Shown: positions 171 to 10,630 of the stretch, piece after piece | How the letters are laid out: each line of letters opens with the position of its first letter | Position numbering within the stretch: the stretch's first letter is position 1 | IMG/VR virus record: IMGVR_UViG_3300030060_001375 | Location: 1-20,052 of that record | Direction: 5' to 3' (one strand) | Source: a virus | DNA length: 20,052 bases | Translations under genes and position numbers: made by a program | The notes under the pieces: generated by a model | What the model saw: only the letters and a program-made list of their open reading frames with translations | Told to the model about the DNA's origin: nothing | Database searches by the model: none

Positions 171-860
171 TCACGCAGAGTAGCGTGAATCGCTCTCAAG
201 TGCAATCCAATACTTTAGATCCATTCCAGTGTGAGTAAACTGACTCACAACCTTATCCGTAACATCCACACGATAATCACCGGGAAGAAGTTTGAGGTTG
301 TCCACGCGGAACACAAACTCAAAATCACTCTCAACGGCAACTTCACCGAGTTCTACAGAGTAACTGTTAGTGGTGTCATCCTGTCGGTCAAGTGCTACCA
401 TAACGATGGTAGTACCCTCACTGCGAACAACCAGATCTGGAAGTTGCATTACAGAAGAAGCACGGGTAATTTCATTGAGTGCATCCTGTGTAAGATCAAA
501 GGATACGACCGGCTCAGGCATCACAATATCCTTAGTAGGAACCGTGAGTAGACGAGGTTCGCTGTAGTAGTAGTTCACCGAAGAACCACCCTCACCCGAG
601 ATGGTCACTGATCGTTCACCAAATTCAAAAGATGGTGCATTGAACAGGGACGCAGTTCCGAGAAACTTGTTGAGATCCCAGATACCAAACTCAGTATCAA
701 AGTTCTCAGGTACAGTAGCAACTGCCATAATGTTCTTGACAGGTGAGATCGTCTTGATCACATCACCCGGCTTGACTAGGATGTTGCTGTTGATTGAAGC
801 AAAGTTCTTGAGCAGATCGAGTGTCTGCTTAGACATGCTAGTTCCAGTAGTTGTTGTCAT
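171..860 (-). CDS. 45: Sliding clamp gp45 (DNA polymerase processivity factor)
   Basis: A 229-residue protein, against about 228 in T4 gp45. The N-terminal segment SKQTLDLLKNFASINSNIL closely parallels the T4 clamp start (LSKDTTALLKNFATINS). In T4 the trimeric ring tethers polymerase gp43 to DNA and also carries the late transcription factors gp55 and gp33, so it couples replication to late gene expression. AAGGAG at 871-876, 10 bases upstream, supports ATG 860. The ATG at codon 9 (836) would align better with T4 and remains an alternative. Flanked by clamp loader gp44 downstream and a small basic protein upstream. Confidence 0.93.
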   Translation of the reverse strand: MTTTTGTSMSKQTLDLLKNFASINSNILVKPGDVIKTISPVKNIMAVATVPENFDTEFGIWDLNKFLGTASLFNAPSFEFGERSVTISGEGGSSVNYYYSEPRLLTVPTKDIVMPEPVVSFDLTQDALNEITRASSVMQLPDLVVRSEGTTIVMVALDRQDDTTNSYSVELGEVAVESDFEFVFRVDNLKLLPGDYRVDVTDKVVSQFTHTGMDLKYWIALESDSRYSA

Positions 861-883: not shown

Positions 884-1063
884 CTAACCATAATACTCTT
901 CATAATCATCAAAGTCAACATTTCCTCGCTTCAATTCTCGAATTATTTCATTCGATCTCTTTCGTTGAGATTTACCTTTCTCCTTCTGAGCCTTTCGCTC
1001 AGACTTGCGAGCCTCGTAGTCGTCTGCTACAAATTTCTTGAATCGCTTGTTGCCCTTCTTCAT
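884..1063 (-). CDS. Small basic protein of 59 residues, unassigned, next to the clamp gene
   Basis: ATG 1063 to TAG 884-886 encodes 59 residues. The first two thirds are very rich in Lys/Arg (MKKGNKRFKKF..., then KSERKAQKEKGKSQRKR), and the tail is acidic and aromatic, ending VDFDDYEEYYG. GAGGA lies 7 bases before the start, and the start directly abuts the RNase H stop (TGA-ATG), so it is translationally linked. I do not recognise a family. The architecture, a basic body plus a short hydrophobic-acidic tail, recalls small T4 proteins that bind the clamp through their C-terminus (gp33 and gp55), but the tail is not a clear match. Position beside gp45 is the only other support for that idea. 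Confidence 0.75.
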   Translation of the reverse strand: MKKGNKRFKKFVADDYEARKSERKAQKEKGKSQRKRSNEIIRELKRGNVDFDDYEEYYG

Positions 1064-1909
1064 TCAAAATTCCTCGATATGCTCCATGAGATTCTTCAGT
1101 CGTTTTGTAACGAAGTAATTGAACAGTTTAGAACGGTGACCATTGATAGGCTTATCCCATTCTCGTTCAATATCAGAAACAAGCCACTCAGGAATCTTTT
1201 CAAAATCGATCATGCTTTGATTGCGATCCCAATTACTCTCAAGACCTTTAGGCGCCTCTCCAAAGGCAAGGTCTTCGTGAATTGAGTTCATCATCTTTTG
1301 CGTGAGACGCTTTTGTCTCTTGTCGGGATCGACGAATGTGTCGGAATCAGAAAGGATATTGGGAATACCATCGGAGGAATCACCACGGATAATATGTTCC
1401 TTTAGGAATGCCTCGGGATCCTTGCAGGTCAGTTTCTTCTTTGTCCGTGGACTAAACTGTTCGATATTAGGATATCGTTGTAGTTGCTGAAAGTCCTTGT
1501 CCGAAGAGATAATCATGATCTTCTCTTCAGTATGATACCTCTTTGCGAGATAGGCGATGATATCATCTGCCTCTGCTCGGGGAACAAGCATAACCTTATA
1601 CGGAAAGGTCTCTGTGATCTCTTCACGAATATCTCTAATGGTAGAGAAAACAGAACCCCAATCAAAGTCAGATTGACTCTGCTTCATTTTCCTAGGCTTC
1701 TTGTAGTGTTCAAAGATGTCTTTACGCCAGTAATTACCAGCATCGAACGTCAATACCACATTCCCATAAGAATCACCAAACTGTTTTCGGATGATTCGGA
1801 GATTGTTTAGTGTCACATGACGAACCAGATCTTCGCTGATCTCATCAGTGTTCTTGGTCATTGCGAAGATGTTGGACAATACCACTTGGTGCATGTCAAC
1901 TAAAATCAT
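1064..1909 (-). CDS. rnh: RNase H, FEN-family 5'-3' exonuclease (T4 rnh type)
   Basis: 281 residues, against 305 in T4. In T4 this enzyme removes RNA primers and adjacent DNA from lagging strands. Acidic metal-site candidates are visible in order: D5 (ILVDMHQ), D56 (LTFDAG), E113/D115/D116 (RAEADD), D137/D139 (SSDKDF) and D177/D180 in the helix-three-turn-helix (RGDSSDGIPN). The YWRKDIFEHYKK segment and the end, IEEF, also parallel T4 RNase H (YWRRDFAYYYKK, INEF). The start overlaps the stop of the upstream gene as ATGA (1906-1909). No good Shine-Dalgarno is seen, so it probably depends on translational coupling. Confidence 0.93.
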   Translation of the reverse strand: MILVDMHQVVLSNIFAMTKNTDEISEDLVRHVTLNNLRIIRKQFGDSYGNVVLTFDAGNYWRKDIFEHYKKPRKMKQSQSDFDWGSVFSTIRDIREEITETFPYKVMLVPRAEADDIIAYLAKRYHTEEKIMIISSDKDFQQLQRYPNIEQFSPRTKKKLTCKDPEAFLKEHIIRGDSSDGIPNILSDSDTFVDPDKRQKRLTQKMMNSIHEDLAFGEAPKGLESNWDRNQSMIDFEKIPEWLVSDIEREWDKPINGHRSKLFNYFVTKRLKNLMEHIEEF

Positions 1910-2394
1910 TTTGTTTTCGCTTTCTTAGTTCGCTTCTTTTTGGTTTTCTTCAACTGAGAAGCCTTGTGTTTGGATCTTGCCAGATCACATGCATTCTTCG
2001 CTGCCATCAAATACATGTCTGCATGACCTCTCATGTATTCACGATCTTCTTTCTTGGAGTTACCTCTTTCAAGGAACTCCCTTTCTACAAGCCATTCATG
2101 CTTGATCTCATCACCCCATCGGATTTGGACACGAAGATCCTTCTTGGGAATGAACGTAGGATACTCGGTAGCATCTGCTCGCTTGTATACTTTCAGTTTG
2201 AAGTTTCTGTGAATGAACGCAAGACCTTCTTCCAGATATCGCTGATACGACATTGAGGATTGAGGGTTGATACCGCTAACGAATGGTCCATCAGGGAAGT
2301 TTGATGGACCCTGCCACGAAGGGTACTTCGGTGCAGTTCGTTTAGCGGCTTTCTTCTTGGTTCGCTTTTTACGAGTAGTCTTTTTCTTGCTCAT
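1906..2394 (-). CDS. Unassigned 162-residue protein with lysine-rich tails at both ends
   Basis: No family recognised. The first 18 residues (SKKKTTRKKRTKKKAAKR) and the last 14 (KKTKKKRTKKAKTK) are almost purely basic and resemble histone or ribosomal-protein tails. Between them is a soluble, mixed domain with aromatic and charged residues (PSWQGPSNFPDGPFVSG; IRWGDEIKHEWLVEREFLERG). There is no signal peptide or membrane segment. The tails suggest nucleic-acid binding, which is inference only. It overlaps RNase H by ATGA, so the two are likely made together. No clear Shine-Dalgarno precedes ATG 2394, and the gap to the gene upstream is 25 bases. Confidence 0.8.
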   Translation of the reverse strand: MSKKKTTRKKRTKKKAAKRTAPKYPSWQGPSNFPDGPFVSGINPQSSMSYQRYLEEGLAFIHRNFKLKVYKRADATEYPTFIPKKDLRVQIRWGDEIKHEWLVEREFLERGNSKKEDREYMRGHADMYLMAAKNACDLARSKHKASQLKKTKKKRTKKAKTK

Positions 2395-2419
2395 GACTAA
2401 TAGTGTATCATGTCTTGGG

Positions 2420-3196
2420 TCAGTTTACAACCCATTCTGAATAAACTTCCTGTCTATCTCCCCTGTCGAGAGGAAACCTGTATACAATTCGCCTAATTCC
2501 AAATGCATTATCCTGAAGACACTTTAGTCTTCTTCCCTTGGTCATGTCTTTCAATGGCTTCATATCTGTGTTTCTTCTCTCTTCGTGAATAGCCACTAGA
2601 AGATTTTCATTGTCCTCCCAGCCTATTATGTCTTCGTATGGGCAAGTGAGTCTATCGCCTTTTTCATAATAGGGAAGGATCATTGGATCATTGAAGTTGA
2701 AAAATCTAACCTCTCGATATTCCGCCAGTTCAGTATGTTTTGTTTTTACTGAACCTTCGATTGCAAGGGTCTCCCCATTTGGGGAAAGATGAAACTTCTG
2801 CCATGAGAACTCCATTTCTCTTTGAGCCTTTTCGGAAACGAACTCAGTTCGGTCTCCAGTATCAAGTCGGAAGATTGTTTGCGATTGGTAATCTTCGGCA
2901 CAGAGTAGATAGTCATGACCATCTATGTGATCTTCTACAAACAAGAATGGAAATTTTTCCCCATTCCTTTTGATGTTTGCAATGACCTTATTACCCTTCT
3001 TGATTTTTGCAAGAGTGTATGCAAAGAATCGATCATCGTGCTTGAATACAACAGGCAATATTTCAATCTTATATTTACCTGAATCGGAGGGGTATATCTT
3101 CTTTTTGTCGTGTAGGTACTTACCTTTTTGAAAAACGGTTTCTACTTTTCTTCTGTGAGTTTTGTACCAGTCTTGACGAGTATGGTTTTCGTTCAT
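2420..3196 (-). CDS. Unassigned 258-residue protein with a beta-propeller-like segment
   Basis: No named family recognised. A strong ribosome site (AAGGAGG) precedes ATG 3196. The middle contains HLSPNGETLAIEG, close to the S-P-D/N-G-x-x-L-A turn of WD40/TolB-type beta-propeller blades, preceded by DYLLCAEDYQSQTIFRLDTGD and followed by another strand-rich stretch (GWEDNENLLVAIHEE). This suggests one to three propeller-like blades or a related all-beta repeat fold. The N-terminus is basic (QDWYKTHRRKVET). No signal peptide or membrane helix. It lies 45 bases downstream of glutamine synthetase and 25 bases before the lysine-rich protein, inside the accessory block. A role as a protein-interaction module is inference. 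Confidence 0.75.
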   Translation of the reverse strand: MNENHTRQDWYKTHRRKVETVFQKGKYLHDKKKIYPSDSGKYKIEILPVVFKHDDRFFAYTLAKIKKGNKVIANIKRNGEKFPFLFVEDHIDGHDYLLCAEDYQSQTIFRLDTGDRTEFVSEKAQREMEFSWQKFHLSPNGETLAIEGSVKTKHTELAEYREVRFFNFNDPMILPYYEKGDRLTCPYEDIIGWEDNENLLVAIHEERRNTDMKPLKDMTKGRRLKCLQDNAFGIRRIVYRFPLDRGDRQEVYSEWVVN

Positions 3197-3241
3197 CGAA
3201 AATCCTCCTTTGAATTTACCTCCATTATGTCATCATCGTAT

Positions 3242-4363
3242 TCAGATCACTTCAGCGGCTTGCCTCTTTTCCTCGTATGAGTTTTCAAGGGCATTTACTA
3301 CGAAAGCGTATGTTTCGTATGGGTCCATGTTCGCCGCGGGGCGACGGTCTTCGAGATGACCTTTCCATCCGTTACGAACTGTGAACATAGGGATTCTGAC
3401 TGATGCTGTACGGTCACCGTTTCCCCATGTGAATTTCTTGTAGTGTTGAGTTTCACACTTACCTGTAAGTCTTTCTTCGTTACCCTCACCATATACCTTC
3501 ATGGCATTTTTATGAGTATCTCGGAGTTTCATTACAAGATCATTCATGAAGTTTGCTCCACCCTCTTTTCGCATCATGTCGGTGCTGAAGTTGATGTGAC
3601 AACCAGAACCATTCCAACCGGGACCAAGTGGTTTTGGAGAGAAATCAACAGCAACTCCTGCCTTTTCTGCAAGACGCTGGAGTAGGTATCTACTCATCCA
3701 AAGATCGTCTGCCGCCTCAAGTGGTTCGGTGGGTGATAGTTGGTATTCCCACTGAGCCGGTGCAACTTCGGCATTCGTACCACAAAGTGGAAGTCGCATC
3801 ATCTGACAGATTGTTGCGTGCATCTCTACCAACTCTCTACCGGAGATGAGACCACCAGAACCACAGTAATATCTACCCTGCTCTTCCGAATTATCGTCAA
3901 AGTCCAGAGGAGTTCCCTTCTTGTCTGTAACAAAATACTCCTGCTCAGGTGCAAACCAATACCCCTCAAGATTACCTTGAATAGCCTCTCGGAGTCCTGC
4001 TCTGGTATTAGTTTCAAGGGGTTCTGGAACTGTGTCCATTGTCATTGATTCACACAAAACGAAGAACGATGGCATGTCTGTTTCTTCGAGCGGGTTCGCG
4101 TACACACGCACAGGGTTCAGAAGGACATCGCTGTTGTCAACTTCTGCTTGACCTGTACTAGATCCATCGTAGGACCACTGCGGACACTTAGATAGTACTG
4201 AATCGCGGGACAGACCTGCATTGGTGTCCAACTTCCAGTTTTCATAACGTACCTTGCTTCTCAGGTTTTTAGTAGTATGACCATCTAGCCACACATACTC
4301 CAGACGGATCATCATATCCTGAATTGCGTTCATTTGAATTTGCGGTTGTAGACCTTCACTCAT
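3242..4363 (-). CDS. Glutamine synthetase, type II (GlnII/eukaryotic-like)
   Basis: 373 residues, full length for GSII (usually about 340-370). The family joins glutamate and ammonia to glutamine using ATP. Motifs in order: LEYVWLDG (21-28), WSYDGSSTGQAEVDNSD (63-79), WFAPEQEYF (136-144, metal-binding Glu), YYCGSGG (165-171), GTNAEVAPAQWEYQ (195-208), DFSPKPLGPGWNGSGCHINFST (240-261), NEERLTG (295-301), DRTASVRIP (317-325), DRRPAANMDPYE (339-350). All point to GSII, not the GSI of most bacteria. The oddity is GKCET where GSII usually has G-x-HET. The start is 4 bases after the methyltransferase stop, with GAGG just upstream. GSII lacks the adenylylated loop of GSI, so host GlnE control should not apply. 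Catalytic activity is likely but unproven. Confidence 0.95.
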   Translation of the reverse strand: MSEGLQPQIQMNAIQDMMIRLEYVWLDGHTTKNLRSKVRYENWKLDTNAGLSRDSVLSKCPQWSYDGSSTGQAEVDNSDVLLNPVRVYANPLEETDMPSFFVLCESMTMDTVPEPLETNTRAGLREAIQGNLEGYWFAPEQEYFVTDKKGTPLDFDDNSEEQGRYYCGSGGLISGRELVEMHATICQMMRLPLCGTNAEVAPAQWEYQLSPTEPLEAADDLWMSRYLLQRLAEKAGVAVDFSPKPLGPGWNGSGCHINFSTDMMRKEGGANFMNDLVMKLRDTHKNAMKVYGEGNEERLTGKCETQHYKKFTWGNGDRTASVRIPMFTVRNGWKGHLEDRRPAANMDPYETYAFVVNALENSYEEKRQAAEVI

Positions 4364-4367
4364 AGTT

Positions 4368-5948
4368 TTACCTCACTTTTTTGAATACGAAAATGGGTTC
4401 GTACTTCTGATAATCCCCATTCACTTGACAGTAGTTTTTGCATAGCGGTTTTCCATCTTCTCCAACTCTATTTTGACCCGGCATTCCTTCCATCCGCATC
4501 TTGAGAGTATAGAGATACTTCAATCCATTCTGTTCTGCTATATTTATAGAATCTTGTTCGAGCGGAAGGTAATTTCCTCGATTTAGTATGTCTGCAATAT
4601 TCCAAATCATATAGCCGTTAGGACGTAACCACTCTGCGATTGTTTCGATTGTAGGTTGAAGAAATCCATCCCTCCAAGATTCATACGACGATCCATGCTT
4701 CTTGTAAGATTGGTTTTCGTCTTCTGAGTATGCCTCTCGATTGAAATAAGGTGGGGATGTAAATGCCACACTGATCTCACCTTTATGTTGTTGAAACTCT
4801 GGATCGTGCTGGATCACCTCAGAACCAAGTTGGTGGATCTCAAATGTGTTTGTCTCGGGAAACAAACCACAACCACGATACGTCTTAGTGTTGTAGAAGT
4901 CTGCAATATCGGCATACTTAGATCTACCATCGTAGAAGTTGTCGGGATTGGGATCAGTTCCAATATAGTGAATCTTTCTATCGTCCTTTGCAGACATCGC
5001 ACCAAGAATGCGACCACCCCACCCGGCAGAAGGATCGTAGATTTTGATTACTTCATCATCCTTGAACTCCTCGGTGTATCTGTCCCAAATATACTTCGCG
5101 GTCATCGGGGGGAAGTTGACCGCAGGTTGGATGTAACCGATTCGGAAAGCGGCGAACCCCTTTGGAAAAATGCGATTACCCTTTTTGTACAGACGCACGC
5201 TGTATACACGGTCATCCGGCATATCGTTTATATCAAATGTGGAATGATGTCGATACTCCAGAATACCATCGTGCTTCAATGATACCACTTGCTCTTTGGT
5301 TAGTTGGAGAATGTTTGAGTGGTCTACTTGATTGTAGCCGCTATTCATTCCCTCTTTGATTTTGACCTGCTCCAACATGAAGTCATGGTTTCCAAAGATT
5401 TCACGATTAGATCTGACTGTACGAACATATTCTGCCGCGTCTTCGCAATCAATCAACGAAGTTTTCTTATTGTTCTTGATGCACGATGGTGCGTGAAGGT
5501 ACATCGAATCTCTCTTGAAGTGACGATTACACCCCTTGATCATCCGCTCCTTGAATCTGTCGTCGGCAAAAAGATCGTAGATAGAGTATCCGGTATCCTT
5601 TTCCGTGTAGTTGATGCGGACCTTGTACATGTTTGGAAACCACTGATCAGCCTCAACACCAAGTTTGCTTGTGTTGACAATCACATCATCCTCTACATCT
5701 GACAATTCATCAGTGAAGGTGAACTTGTGGATTGGGTAAGAACACATCTTGTTCCACTGGTCAATGATGTCACGATCCTCCTTACCTCTTCGTGGAGGAA
5801 CGTCTTCATTATCCCACACATCGACTACAGTCTTCCTAAGATTTACGACCCACTCTTCAAACCTAGTAGAATCCATCTCCAACAGTTCCTCGAACATAAC
5901 ATTGATGTCCGAGTCTATTAGGTGTGTGTTTTTTCCATAGTGAGTCAT
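4368..5948 (-). CDS. SAM-dependent amino-methyltransferase with SPPY motif and large N-terminal region
   Basis: 526 residues. The C-terminal half is a Rossmann methyltransferase: motif I DPSAGWGGR (305-313), an acidic motif II-like GTDPNP (330-335), and catalytic motif IV TSPPYFNRE (398-406), the S/D-P-P-Y signature of enzymes that methylate exocyclic amino groups (N4-cytosine or N6-adenine in DNA). It ends with EPIFVFKK, common in such enzymes. Motif order I to IV without a long insert is gamma-like. Residues 1 to about 270 match nothing I know and may recognise the target. No restriction enzyme is adjacent, so a lone modification enzyme or an RNA/protein target is possible. The start overlaps the gp46 stop (TAATG), with AGGA 7 bases upstream. 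Confidence 0.85.
   Translation of the reverse strand: MTHYGKNTHLIDSDINVMFEELLEMDSTRFEEWVVNLRKTVVDVWDNEDVPPRRGKEDRDIIDQWNKMCSYPIHKFTFTDELSDVEDDVIVNTSKLGVEADQWFPNMYKVRINYTEKDTGYSIYDLFADDRFKERMIKGCNRHFKRDSMYLHAPSCIKNNKKTSLIDCEDAAEYVRTVRSNREIFGNHDFMLEQVKIKEGMNSGYNQVDHSNILQLTKEQVVSLKHDGILEYRHHSTFDINDMPDDRVYSVRLYKKGNRIFPKGFAAFRIGYIQPAVNFPPMTAKYIWDRYTEEFKDDEVIKIYDPSAGWGGRILGAMSAKDDRKIHYIGTDPNPDNFYDGRSKYADIADFYNTKTYRGCGLFPETNTFEIHQLGSEVIQHDPEFQQHKGEISVAFTSPPYFNREAYSEDENQSYKKHGSSYESWRDGFLQPTIETIAEWLRPNGYMIWNIADILNRGNYLPLEQDSINIAEQNGLKYLYTLKMRMEGMPGQNRVGEDGKPLCKNYCQVNGDYQKYEPIFVFKKVR
4541..4548 (-). promoter_or_regulatory. Candidate T4-type late promoter box inside the methyltransferase gene, upstream of glutamine synthetase
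   Basis: On the minus strand the eight bases read TATAAATA, the exact T4 late promoter -10 box used by gp55. Initiation would fall near 4535 and give a leader of about 170 bases before the glutamine synthetase start. It lies inside coding sequence (codons for S-I-N-I), so chance occurrence is quite possible. Confidence 0.35.
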
Positions 5949-7660
5949 TACGAAATCCTACTGAAGTTGTTCTTTTTCTCAAACCGAATAGTCCCATCGA
6001 ACTTATCGTGCAACTGGTCTGACTTGTGACTGATCACAAAGATGTTGTTGTTCTTTCCAAACCCCTTGAGGATCTTCAAGAACTCATCTGTACCAACCGC
6101 ATCAAGACTAGAGTCAAACACTTCGTCTAGAATCAATAGATTACAGTTGGTACTGTTGCGTAGTGTAGCAACTTCTCTCCATGCAAGCAAGAGAGAAAGG
6201 TCGATTCTTAGTCTTTCACCTTCACTGAAATTGTGATAAGAAAACTCGTCCCGATGCCTACTCTTGATAGTCTCGTTGAAGTTTTCGTCCAACTCAAATG
6301 TAACAAAGAACTCCATACTCTTGAGATACTGATTGATTAGCCTATTCATGATAGGCAAATAGTGCTTGATGATTTTTGCCTTGATCCCTGTGTCTTTGAG
6401 TAACAGAGAGGCGATCTCGTAGTTGTTCTTATCCTTCAGAAGACTCATTCGCTCGCATACAAGATCCTTGCCTTCGATTGCAAGTTTCTTCATCTCGTCT
6501 TTATCATCTTCTATCTTTCCTCGGTCGGATGTTGTACGCTCAATGTCCGTTTTGAGTTTAGCGATGTACTTCTTTGAAGATGAGACAATACCCCGGCGGG
6601 TTCTGATTTCTTCTTCAAACACTCGAACCGCAGACAATACTTTCTCGATCTCTTCCAGTCTTGTAGAAGCACCGTCTAGTTTATCTTGTAGAGCCTCTTG
6701 CTCTTTATCTTGCTTATCGATAGTCTCTTTCAACCCATCGATCATTTTGTCCTTGTGTTCGGAGTCAATTTTCTGAGAACAAGCGGGACATATATCATTC
6801 TTCTCATAGAACTCTACTGATTCTTTGATTGTCTTATTGTCTCTTTTTGAGTCTCTGATTGATGCCTTCGTGTCGGTAATCTCCGTCTGTACTTCCGCCT
6901 TACCTTGACTAACTTCGAGTAGTTTTTCAATTTTGCCCTCTATGGTTTGAATTTCTTCTTCGATTCGCTCGATGTCTTTTCGACTACTTTCGATTTCTGT
7001 TTTGTGTGCCTCTATTGCATCATCAGACCTCGACTGAATGTCCTTGATCAACTTTTCTTGTGTTTCGATCTTTGTTCGTACAATATCTACCTTGTAGTCA
7101 ATGTCTTTCATACTGTCTTTAGACTGAGAAAGTCTAGACTTGATGATAGCGTTCATCGCAGAGAAGATATCGATATCCAAAAGAGTTTCAACAACTGCAC
7201 GGCGATCGGCAGTAGACAACTTCATAAACGGAACATAGTTCGATGATCCCAGAACAATTACCTGACAAAATGAACGATAAGACATTTTGAGGATCTGCTC
7301 CTCAAGCATCGACTGGTAATCTTTGGAGTTCGAGTTTTGATCCACCATTTTTCCGTTTTTGAAAATCTCAAACACTTTAGGTTTGTGACCTCGACGGACT
7401 AAGTATTCGTTTTCGCCAATTTCAAAACCAATCTCTACGATGCAGTCTTTATCGTTTACACTATTGATAAGTTGAGGGATATTCGTCCCTCGAAACGACT
7501 TACCAAACAGACAGTATGTAAGTGCATCCAATATCGTTGATTTACCTGCACCATTATCACCTGCGATCAGTGTAGTTGGTCGTTTGGTAATATCGATTGA
7601 GGTAAAGTAGTTACCTGTGCTAAGGAAGTTCTTCCATCTGATTGCTTTGAAGGTAATCAT
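5948..7660 (-). CDS. 46: Recombination nuclease ATPase subunit gp46 (Rad50/SbcC family)
   Basis: 570 residues from ATG 7660 (T4 gp46 about 560). With gp47 it forms the Mre11-Rad50-like complex that resects ends for recombination-dependent replication. Seen: Walker A GDNGAGKST (34-42), Q-loop region near SFCQVIVLGSS, long coiled coils broken by a CPAC zinc hook (291-294), ABC signature-like FSEGERLRIDLSLLL, and Walker B NLLILDEVFDSSLD, then a switch His in FVISHK. A frame extension to a GTG at 7690 adds 10 residues, but ATG 7660 forms an ATGA overlap with the gene upstream and has AAGGAG within range. The coiled coil is short, as in other phage gp46 proteins. Confidence 0.95.
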   Translation of the reverse strand: MITFKAIRWKNFLSTGNYFTSIDITKRPTTLIAGDNGAGKSTILDALTYCLFGKSFRGTNIPQLINSVNDKDCIVEIGFEIGENEYLVRRGHKPKVFEIFKNGKMVDQNSNSKDYQSMLEEQILKMSYRSFCQVIVLGSSNYVPFMKLSTADRRAVVETLLDIDIFSAMNAIIKSRLSQSKDSMKDIDYKVDIVRTKIETQEKLIKDIQSRSDDAIEAHKTEIESSRKDIERIEEEIQTIEGKIEKLLEVSQGKAEVQTEITDTKASIRDSKRDNKTIKESVEFYEKNDICPACSQKIDSEHKDKMIDGLKETIDKQDKEQEALQDKLDGASTRLEEIEKVLSAVRVFEEEIRTRRGIVSSSKKYIAKLKTDIERTTSDRGKIEDDKDEMKKLAIEGKDLVCERMSLLKDKNNYEIASLLLKDTGIKAKIIKHYLPIMNRLINQYLKSMEFFVTFELDENFNETIKSRHRDEFSYHNFSEGERLRIDLSLLLAWREVATLRNSTNCNLLILDEVFDSSLDAVGTDEFLKILKGFGKNNNIFVISHKSDQLHDKFDGTIRFEKKNNFSRIS

Positions 7661-8220
7661 GCTGTTACTAGAATCTCCTTGGGAGACCACCAGTCTGGAG
7701 CGTCTCTATTTGTCCACTTTGCAAAGTATGCCTTTTCACCGTGGTAGTAGTTTCGGTAAGCCTGCACTGCACACTCATTCTTGTATTCTTCCGGCATAGC
7801 CTGTGCAAATGGAGTTAGGTTACCGATTGGAATGTTCATAGGAAACTCGTCCTCTAAGTATCGAAGAAGTTTCTCCGACTTATGGATCTTCCCATACCTG
7901 TGTGTATATTCCTCACAAAGAGCAACACCATGAAGACTCAACCAATGGTAATTTAGATGAGACTTCATACACCATTGTGTACATGGATGACCTACGAAAG
8001 ATGCTTTCCACAAAGACTCTTCACGAATATCCTCCAGCCTCCATCTCTTGATCTTTCTTGGACGTTCACCTTTAGACATGTCGTAGTATTCAGACCCGTC
8101 GAGAACGCGATGTGCGGTCGAAAGCATCTGACCTGTTTCTATAATCATCTTTACTACATGCTTGTCGCATGACTGCTGTGCTGAAACGACCGGATCGTTG
8201 TCGAGTACAAAGATGTTCAT
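7657..8220 (-). CDS. Unassigned Cys/His-rich protein between gp47 and gp46
   Basis: 187 residues, no function recognised. From memory, similar proteins beginning MNIF-x-LD-x-DP occur in marine T4-like phages, but I cannot verify this. Conserved-looking features are the start FVLDNDPVVSAQQSCDKHVVK (C18, H21), STAHRVL (H37), a dense patch HPCTQWCMKSHLNYHW (H78, C80, C84, H88, H92), and a C-terminal AYRNYYHGEKAYFAKW. The Cys/His spacing could bind a metal (inference). It overlaps gp47 at its start and gp46 at its stop, both by ATGA, with GGAGG 10 bases before the start. It is therefore made in step with the two nuclease subunits and may be a partner or regulator. Confidence 0.85.
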   Translation of the reverse strand: MNIFVLDNDPVVSAQQSCDKHVVKMIIETGQMLSTAHRVLDGSEYYDMSKGERPRKIKRWRLEDIREESLWKASFVGHPCTQWCMKSHLNYHWLSLHGVALCEEYTHRYGKIHKSEKLLRYLEDEFPMNIPIGNLTPFAQAMPEEYKNECAVQAYRNYYHGEKAYFAKWTNRDAPDWWSPKEILVTA

Positions 8221-9272
8221 TGTGTAATAGCCTCCATGTAGATGTCCTTGAAAATCTTCTTGAGTTCTGATGGGTTGTCTACTTCACCAGATAGAGAATC
8301 GATCTCTTCGTAGATTATATCAAGGGTTCCTTTTGCAAGATCAATTCGTTCTTCTTCACCGATATCTTCCTGAATGTCTTCTACTACTTGGACATTTGCA
8401 GGTTGAACAGAGTACAGTTTATCAAGCACTTTATCGAATGTAAAGGGAAACTTTTTGTTGGCTACAAAGACTTTTACGAACTTATCCTTGTATTCAGAAT
8501 AGTCGGCAGTCATGTATTTCATGGCGTCTACTGCTTCATCATCATACACGAAAGAGTGAAAGAGCCTTCTTGGGTTTTCAATAAACTCTATATCAGCAGA
8601 CGATGTATCGAAAACATGAAAGCCTTTCTTCTCGTTCAAGTCTGAGAAGGTAAGTTGATACTGTGTGCCTAAGTAGTGTACGTTGCCTTTAGTGTGCTTT
8701 GAGTGGAAGTGACCAGACAGAACCATAGCGTACTTGGCAAGCATTGACGGATCCATACCACCATCGAACTTGACACCTCGCATTACTTCATAACCATTCA
8801 GTTCAAAATGACCACACAAGTAATTTGCCGATTTGTGTTTGATAAACTCGATTGATTCCTCGTAGTTCTCTTTATTGATCCACGGAACAAACGAGAATGG
8901 AATCCCATCCAGACGAACAATCTCAGGCTTTTCATACACCTTGAACGACTCGGCATTTGAAAACACCTCTCGTAGTGAGTTGACCTTATTCGTGTTTCTG
9001 AAATAGGTATCATGGTTACCTAGAATACAGTGAATAGTAATACCCATCTGCTCTAGGGGTTCTACGAACTTCTCACGCACCCGCGTGAGGGTATTGAAGT
9101 TTACATACTTGCGCCTATCAAGAAAGTCACCCAAGTGGACAATCTCGGTTACGTTGTTTTCTTTGCAGTATGGAAAGAACTGATTCTCAAAGAAATCAAG
9201 AGAGTAGTCTAGAAATACAGGAGAATCGTTTCTTGCACCAAAGTGAGTGTCATTGATAAAAGGAATTTTCAA
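8217..9272 (-). CDS. 47: Recombination nuclease subunit gp47 (Mre11/SbcD family)
   Basis: 351 residues (T4 gp47 339). Calcineurin-like phosphoesterase motifs appear in order: NDTHFG (D-x-H), LGDFLDRR, LGNHDTYF (GNHD) and SGHFHSKH (GHxH). These bind two metal ions for exo/endonuclease action with gp46. The family-typical start M-K-I is at a TTG codon (9270-9272), with GGAG 6 bases upstream, and no ATG fits the alignment. The gene starts one base after the gp55 stop and its end overlaps the next gene by ATGA. The uncommon start may lower its translation relative to gp55. Confidence 0.94.
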   Translation of the reverse strand: MKIPFINDTHFGARNDSPVFLDYSLDFFENQFFPYCKENNVTEIVHLGDFLDRRKYVNFNTLTRVREKFVEPLEQMGITIHCILGNHDTYFRNTNKVNSLREVFSNAESFKVYEKPEIVRLDGIPFSFVPWINKENYEESIEFIKHKSANYLCGHFELNGYEVMRGVKFDGGMDPSMLAKYAMVLSGHFHSKHTKGNVHYLGTQYQLTFSDLNEKKGFHVFDTSSADIEFIENPRRLFHSFVYDDEAVDAMKYMTADYSEYKDKFVKVFVANKKFPFTFDKVLDKLYSVQPANVQVVEDIQEDIGEEERIDLAKGTLDIIYEEIDSLSGEVDNPSELKKIFKDIYMEAITQ

Positions 9273-9273
9273 A

Positions 9274-9816
9274 TCAGTCTCCGAAAAACTCGTCTAGAGT
9301 GGCTCCTGCATCGTCTTTAGTTTTCTTAGTCTTCTTCTTTTTGGACTTAGGCGTAAAGTTCTCGATGTCGGTATCAGTCAAATTGAATTTCTGTCTCATT
9401 GTCTTTTCGTCTTCCCAAACAGGAAAGTGTTTATAGAACTCTGACTGTTCGGCAACCTTGTACTTTACATACATCTGCTTCTTCTCTTTTTGAATCCTGC
9501 GTAGAAACGCATAGTATATCATTTGAGTGAAGTAGGAGAATGGGTTCTTTGATTTTTCGGGGTTGAAGTTATGAGCGTACATCAGGCAGTTTTCAATACC
9601 ATCGCCGATCATCTCTTCTCTGTATTCATAGTTGATGAAGTTGGGTTTGTACGATAGATGTTCTGCAATCTTCATAAAACACTCTCCAATATACTCTGAT
9701 ACTGGAGGTCTAGATTCACCCAAATCATCCGCCTCGATAACCTTCTTTTTCCATTCACACATTGCTATGAAAAATTGCTCGTTATCTACATAATGTTCTT
9801 TCTTTGCTTTCGCCAT
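9274..9816 (-). CDS. 55: Late sigma factor gp55
   Basis: 180 residues (T4 gp55 185). It directs host RNA polymerase core to phage late promoters (TATAAATA type). The middle NYEYREEMIGDGIENCLMYAHNFNPEKSKNPFSYFTQMIYYAFLRRIQKEKK region parallels T4 gp55 ([22 protein letters not shown]...[24 protein letters not shown]), a reduced sigma region 2. A lysine-rich linker (KSKKKKTKKTKDD) leads to the C-terminal TLDEFFGD, matching the clamp-binding tail of T4 gp55 (SLDFLYE). AGGAAG precedes ATG 9816. It is first in a long operon behind a sigma70-like promoter. Late boxes found in the head module are its expected targets. Confidence 0.95.
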   Translation of the reverse strand: MAKAKKEHYVDNEQFFIAMCEWKKKVIEADDLGESRPPVSEYIGECFMKIAEHLSYKPNFINYEYREEMIGDGIENCLMYAHNFNPEKSKNPFSYFTQMIYYAFLRRIQKEKKQMYVKYKVAEQSEFYKHFPVWEDEKTMRQKFNLTDTDIENFTPKSKKKKTKKTKDDAGATLDEFFGD

Positions 9817-9961
9817 GTAATCACTTCCTTGTTTTTCATACTATACACTACCTCGTAAAAAAATCAACACAAAGTAGGAAATTTATCTATTGACATGTTT
9901 CATTTTCGGGTTATCTTATCTGTGTCTTGGTTGGGTATGGGTATATCTAATAACTATTAGT
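9817..9961. other. Longest intergenic spacer (145 bases)
   Basis: This spacer between gp55 and the unassigned 222-residue gene contains the promoter at 9840-9867 and a small AT-rich inverted repeat at about 9948-9961 (CTAATAACTATTAG). No ORF, tRNA or convincing terminator is visible. Confidence 0.6.
9840..9867 (-). promoter_or_regulatory. Sigma70-like early/middle promoter for the gp55 operon
   Basis: On the minus strand, TTGATT (9867-9862) is followed after 16 bases by TATAGT (9845-9840). Transcription would begin near 9833, about 17 bases before the gp55 start. This is the clearest host-type promoter in the window. It lies in the only spacer over 100 bases (9817-9961). Confidence 0.6.
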
Positions 9962-10630
9962 TTATGGTTCTGGATCCCAGTCATCAAACTGACTACCAAA
10001 ATCCCAATCATCACGCTTAGGTGGAGAAGGAGGGCGTCTCTTCGGTTGAGAAGGCTTCTCCTTCTTTTTGTTCTTGAACTCCTCGAACTTCTCCATGAAT
10101 GCATCAGTATCAAATTCGATACCATTGTCTTCATCAATTCCCATAATACCATTCGCTAGGAAATGAAAGAACATACCGGGAGACATGCGGAAATTCACAT
10201 CGATGTTTTCCGCGTCCTCGATCTTCTGTTCCATTTCCTCGCTAGGAAAACCAGGCATCTCATCCATTTCATCTAATTCTTCGCGGATCATTTTTTCAAT
10301 GAATCCCTGAAGTTGTTCGGGATCATTCTGGATCTCAGCGGCGATGTCGTGAGCAACATCTTCTTTCTCTAGAGCGTATTGGTATTTTCTTACGAGATCA
10401 GGAGCAGGGAGCGAAGTCACCAAGACGGAATCTACAGGAAGATCAACAGTAATATCATCGCTATTTTCAATCCAAGGCTTTATAACCTGCACGATCCGCA
10501 TACCCATTTCACTGGGCATCGGCATGTTATGCAGGACAAAAGGTCTGTGAAGAATAAGGGAGTCTTTGTTCTTTCCTCTAATTTCCCCGATGATGTCTAA
10601 GTTGTTTTTTAGTTTGAATAGTCTAATCAT
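9962..10630 (-). CDS. Unassigned protein with Sm/LSm-like N-terminus and acidic DDWD tail
   Basis: 222 residues. The first 70 have the strand pattern of an Sm fold: MIRLFKLKNNLDIIGEI (G-x-x-x-G-E-I), NKDSLILHRPFVLH, GMRIVQVIKPWIE, ITVDLPVDSVLVT. This is a fold guess from pattern, not a family hit. The middle is acidic and helical (EEMEQKIEDAENID). A Lys/Pro linker (KPSQPKRRPPSPPKR) then leads to a tail with the four-residue unit DDWD twice (DDWDFGSQFDDWDPEP). There is no membrane segment. AGGAG lies just before ATG 10630, 8 bases after the UvsW stop, so it is probably expressed with UvsW. RNA binding or a short-peptide interaction are possible roles, both inference. Confidence 0.8.
   Translation of the reverse strand: MIRLFKLKNNLDIIGEIRGKNKDSLILHRPFVLHNMPMPSEMGMRIVQVIKPWIENSDDITVDLPVDSVLVTSLPAPDLVRKYQYALEKEDVAHDIAAEIQNDPEQLQGFIEKMIREELDEMDEMPGFPSEEMEQKIEDAENIDVNFRMSPGMFFHFLANGIMGIDEDNGIEFDTDAFMEKFEEFKNKKKEKPSQPKRRPPSPPKRDDWDFGSQFDDWDPEP

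Follow-up and report, generated by a model that had tools for sequence, protein, structure and literature searches.

The DNA analyzed here (the window) is a 20-kb IMG/VR fragment of 20,052 nucleotides from a T4-like phage whose lineage is known only from metagenomes. Its T4-type genes comprise gp45, RNase H, gp46, gp47, gp55, UvsW, UvsY, gp23, gp22, gp21, and gp20, a set that places it among the T4-like phages (gp23-type myoviruses). The identified genes around the glutamine synthetase (GS) gene all lie on the minus strand, in the row gp47-gp46-u526-GS-u258-u162-rnh-gp45:

171..860, minus strand: gp45 sliding clamp
1064..1909, minus strand: T4 RNase H-like 5'-3' exonuclease (rnh), the downstream border of the GS slot
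1906..2394, minus strand: u162, a small lysine-rich protein that occurs with and without GS
2420..3196, minus strand: u258, the function-unassigned downstream neighbor, which was seen only alongside GS or pseudo-GS
3242..4363, minus strand: type II GS (GSII), 373 amino acids, ATG start, stop codon included
4368..5948, minus strand: u526, the conserved upstream neighbor, 526 amino acids, with a C-terminal part weakly like N4/N6 DNA methylases
4541..4548, minus strand: TATAAATA, an exact T4 late-promoter core, about 180 nucleotides upstream of GS and within the u526 codons
5948..7690, minus strand: gp46 (SbcC-like) recombination nuclease subunit, upstream of u526
8217..9272, minus strand: gp47 (SbcD-like) subunit

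An earlier note on this DNA had described an unbroken 373-codon GS frame at 3242 to 4363, set among T4-like replication genes. The coordinates and the frame stand, as does the setting, since gp45, RNase H, gp46, and gp47 flank the gene. The strand required correction: on the plus strand of this interval stops interrupt the GS frame, and it is the minus strand that carries the open frame.

The encoded protein matched Pfam Gln-synt_C (7.8e-23) and scored far higher against the NCBIfam GlnII model (1.1e-82, 277.9 bits) than against the GSI (9e-19, 67.5 bits) or GSIII (47.8 bits) models, which assigns it to class II. Because the GlnII score falls under the NCBI equivalog cut-off of 500 bits, the window GS is a divergent GSII. 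Its matches in the PDB were plant, animal, yeast, and Streptomyces GSII, with maize GSII at the top (5e-74), and all 19 catalytic-site positions, covering the metal, glutamate, ammonium, and ATP sites, are identical to those of maize GSII; nearly all of these residues are invariant across the family. The open reading frame is thus a full-length type II glutamine synthetase, as the earlier note had proposed.

The structural comparisons agreed with this assignment. At 373 amino acids, the subunit lies within the roughly 340 to 375 expected of GSII, and an AF2 monomer model (pLDDT 90.2) superimposed on solved GSII chains with TM scores of 0.79 to 0.93, varying with the chain and length used (0.86/0.93 for Streptomyces 4bax; 0.83/0.88 for maize 2d3a). 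Cellular GSIIs (Streptomyces GlnII 4bax, maize GS1 2d3a, and yeast Gln1 3fky) share the fold, length, and catalytic residues of the window GS but are only 35 to 40% identical to it in structure alignments and fall in a separate clade. Between the window and three close relatives, the dN/dS of GS was 0.03 to 0.09, indicating purifying selection, although these values are approximate because synonymous distances are large (dS 1.7 to 2.1). The codon usage of the gene resembles that of its neighbors. Judged from its sequence and predicted structure, the window GS is likely an active enzyme.

The earlier note did not count GSII among the usual genes of the T4 group. This view held for catalogued T4-like phages, as no GSII match was found among approximately 2,500 records with a T4-type gp23 or gp20, but rarity as such did not: GSII was located at at least 567 places in viral contigs in one scan and 511 in another, and a viral group was published in 2007. 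GSII is therefore common in uncultivated phages and not new as a phage gene. Fifteen catalogued phage records matched the window GS, none reaching 60% identity; judged by name, none of them is a T4-like isolate, with the uncultured ones untyped. The closest catalogued relatives of the window's gp23 and gp20 belong to T4-like cyanophages and Melnitz methylophages (∼55% identity, as for the cyanophage proteins), and those in the catalogue gave no GSII match; Melnitz has been reported without glnA (PMC9004378). At the DNA level, catalogued phages gave no match to window positions 1000 to 10000.

Several known systems resemble the window in part. Passages of the 2007 Global Ocean Sampling (GOS) survey assign a type II GS group from metagenomes to marine viruses (PMC1821046); like the window gene, these are viral type II GS from metagenomes, but the survey passages link the group to neither a T4-like genome nor a fixed slot (PMC1821046). 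GS has also been reported in moraphages (PMC12619734), in jumbo phages as GS/glnA (PMC13037316), and in viromes (PMC9083009). The moraphage and jumbo-phage genes are likewise phage-borne but belong to other lineages, and the moraphage genes were compared as GS, type unspecified. Three huge phages of other lineages (LR756501, LR756502, and LR745206) carry a GSII like the window's at 41 to 43% identity. In our GS tree, LR756502 and LR745206 lie near eukaryotic and actinobacterial GSII and LR756501 lies near bacterial GSII, all outside the clade described below. What appears to be new here, as read from the sequences, is a T4-like GSII in one slot and one clade with core-like divergence, together with the loss of its active site in one contig, L188.

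The GS junctions are shared by three other metagenome assemblies (both junctions in L001, the downstream one in L002, and the upstream one in L003), so the locus is not an assembly chimera; a chimera at 3242 to 4363, the artifact considered in the earlier note, is ruled out. The gene lies beside phage genes and away from any assembly join. Using one query constructed from the window, L001, and L188 proteins, we recovered the arrangement u526-GS-(u258, u162, or another gene)-rnh-gp45 in L274 to L282, L284, L327, and L336/L337, although the two borders are not both visible in every contig and L336 and L337 carry identical GS. T4-like GS was found in this single slot in at least 16 contigs. A gp23 match was present in 6 of the 11 slot contigs searched (L274 to L282, L284, and L336), five of them at 1e-141 or better, and the five without a match are fragments of 7.7 to 12.4 kb.

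In the GS tree the window protein falls among GSIIs and not with non-GS ligases, the placement that would have undone the original reading. The T4-slot copies form one clade (support 97/86), and its sister, L286, also bears gp23. In a tree that lacked the slot relatives, the window clade formed a long branch of uncertain placement; adding these relatives resolved its position. The main groups of a core-gene tree match those of the GS tree, and GS distances track those of rnh, gp45, and u526 (Spearman 0.82, with L188 left out; the pairs are non-independent). Given the fixed slot, the single clade, and divergence in step with the replication genes, these 15 sequences from metagenome fragments point to a single old acquisition followed by mostly vertical inheritance and occasional loss. 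Between the window and L001, GS is 78% identical and most neighbors are 90 to 97% identical, a difference that could reflect faster evolution or allele exchange.

Two contigs, L189 and L191, are without GS even though they fall inside the clade in the core-gene tree, which suggests loss or replacement and implies that GS is dispensable. The slot is empty in L189. In L191 it is occupied by a GalE-like sugar epimerase, named from sequence motifs (2981-3976, plus strand), so the slot accepts different cargo. In L013 to L018 the slot holds an unrelated protein of about 371 amino acids; for L016 and L018, the complete source records were searched as well and contained no GS match. The photosystem reaction-centre gene (PF00124) was absent from the four related GS-less contigs searched, leaving a cyanobacterial host unsupported. 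The slot GS of L282 (plus strand, ending near 6354) has about 100 extra N-terminal residues that are glutaredoxin/thioredoxin-like, below Pfam cut-offs; this extension may be either a natural fusion or a misread upstream start.

L188 carries a GSII ortholog (5082-6038, plus strand) in the slot shared with the window GS, with its open frame intact. Nearly all of its catalytic residues are gone, including the NGSGxH, NAEV...QWE, and RLTG motifs. It nevertheless retains N-terminal features specific to the window lineage, its model is GSII-like (pLDDT 82.6, TM 0.79), and the core-gene tree unites L188 and the window (96/94). No second GS was found in this 50-kb contig, and a search for further copies of this kind recovered L188 alone. 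This ortholog, present in one contig, may be a decaying copy or may have acquired a new non-catalytic role.

Taken together, the window GS is unremarkable as an enzyme but notable for its location, as an old resident of the T4-like replication-gene row. We consider it probable that the intact GSII is a long-resident metabolic gene of an uncultivated T4-like clade, with a constant position that has u526 on one side and RNase H/clamp on the other, and that it makes glutamine during infection. GS would be made alongside the replication proteins, its subunits would assemble as a GSII decamer, and the enzyme would convert glutamate, ammonium, and ATP to glutamine. This glutamine could supply the glutamine-dependent enzymes that make nucleotides for phage DNA (PurF, PurL, GuaA, and PyrG), the role that we infer to be most likely, and control of the host's own GS might be bypassed. 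Escape of a phage GSII from adenylylation is plausible by analogy with its enzyme class. A stable, mostly vertical gene in the T4-like replication row, as opposed to a scattered recent pickup, suggests that these phages are under a lasting constraint from nitrogen assimilation. Because the slot holds orthologs that look active and one that looks dead, it also offers a natural comparison for the gene's purpose.

The L188 ortholog bears on an alternative in which catalysis is dispensable and the slot protein acts by binding to proteins of the host or the phage, or joins host GS assemblies and inhibits or stabilizes them. In L188 the frame is still open, the N-terminal half is still that of the lineage, and the predicted fold is still that of GSII, although nearly all catalytic residues are gone. 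This would fit such a role, yet it is a single contig that may simply be decaying, and wherever their fragments reach, the other slot copies retain all acidic, histidine, and arginine residues of the catalytic site. Bacterial hosts usually have dodecameric GSI, which should not mix with GSII subunits. We regard this alternative as unlikely, and we are just as doubtful of a version in which GSII was captured once, became near-core, and took on a role beyond catalysis, with L188 as a maintained pseudoenzyme such as a regulator or decoy in nitrogen metabolism.

GS chemistry on another substrate (a gamma-glutamyl amide or DNA-modification precursor), performed jointly with the methylase-like u526, would account for the constancy of this neighbor and the weak DNA methylase matches of its C-terminal part. 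It is nonetheless quite improbable, as the glutamate-, ammonium-, and ATP-site residues are conserved when aligned to maize GSII and u526 is also present in phages without GS. The greater divergence of GS than of its neighbors between close relatives might be taken to indicate a recent accidental host gene or a chimera with no phage function, but the recurring junctions, the single slot clade with core-gene-like divergence, the neighbor-like codon usage, and the purifying selection leave this reading hardly credible.

The TATAAATA core is retained in L001 and L003 and replaced by TATACATA in L188; it is weak evidence of a putative GS late promoter, as about one such 8-mer is expected per strand by chance and this one lies inside codons. 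An Rfam scan of the window at gathering thresholds, glutamine riboswitches included, gave no match, a tRNA scan of the window found none, and sigma-70-type promoter sites were no more frequent than in shuffles. Upstream of the slot, u526 is conserved in both GS-bearing and GS-less T4-like contigs, with its methylase likeness confined to the C-terminal part. In L018 (5261-5989) and related GS-less contigs, a gene with a weak match to PALP (PLP-dependent enzymes) separates gp46 from u526. A SET-domain protein (L018, 2762-3574) is encoded beside gp46.
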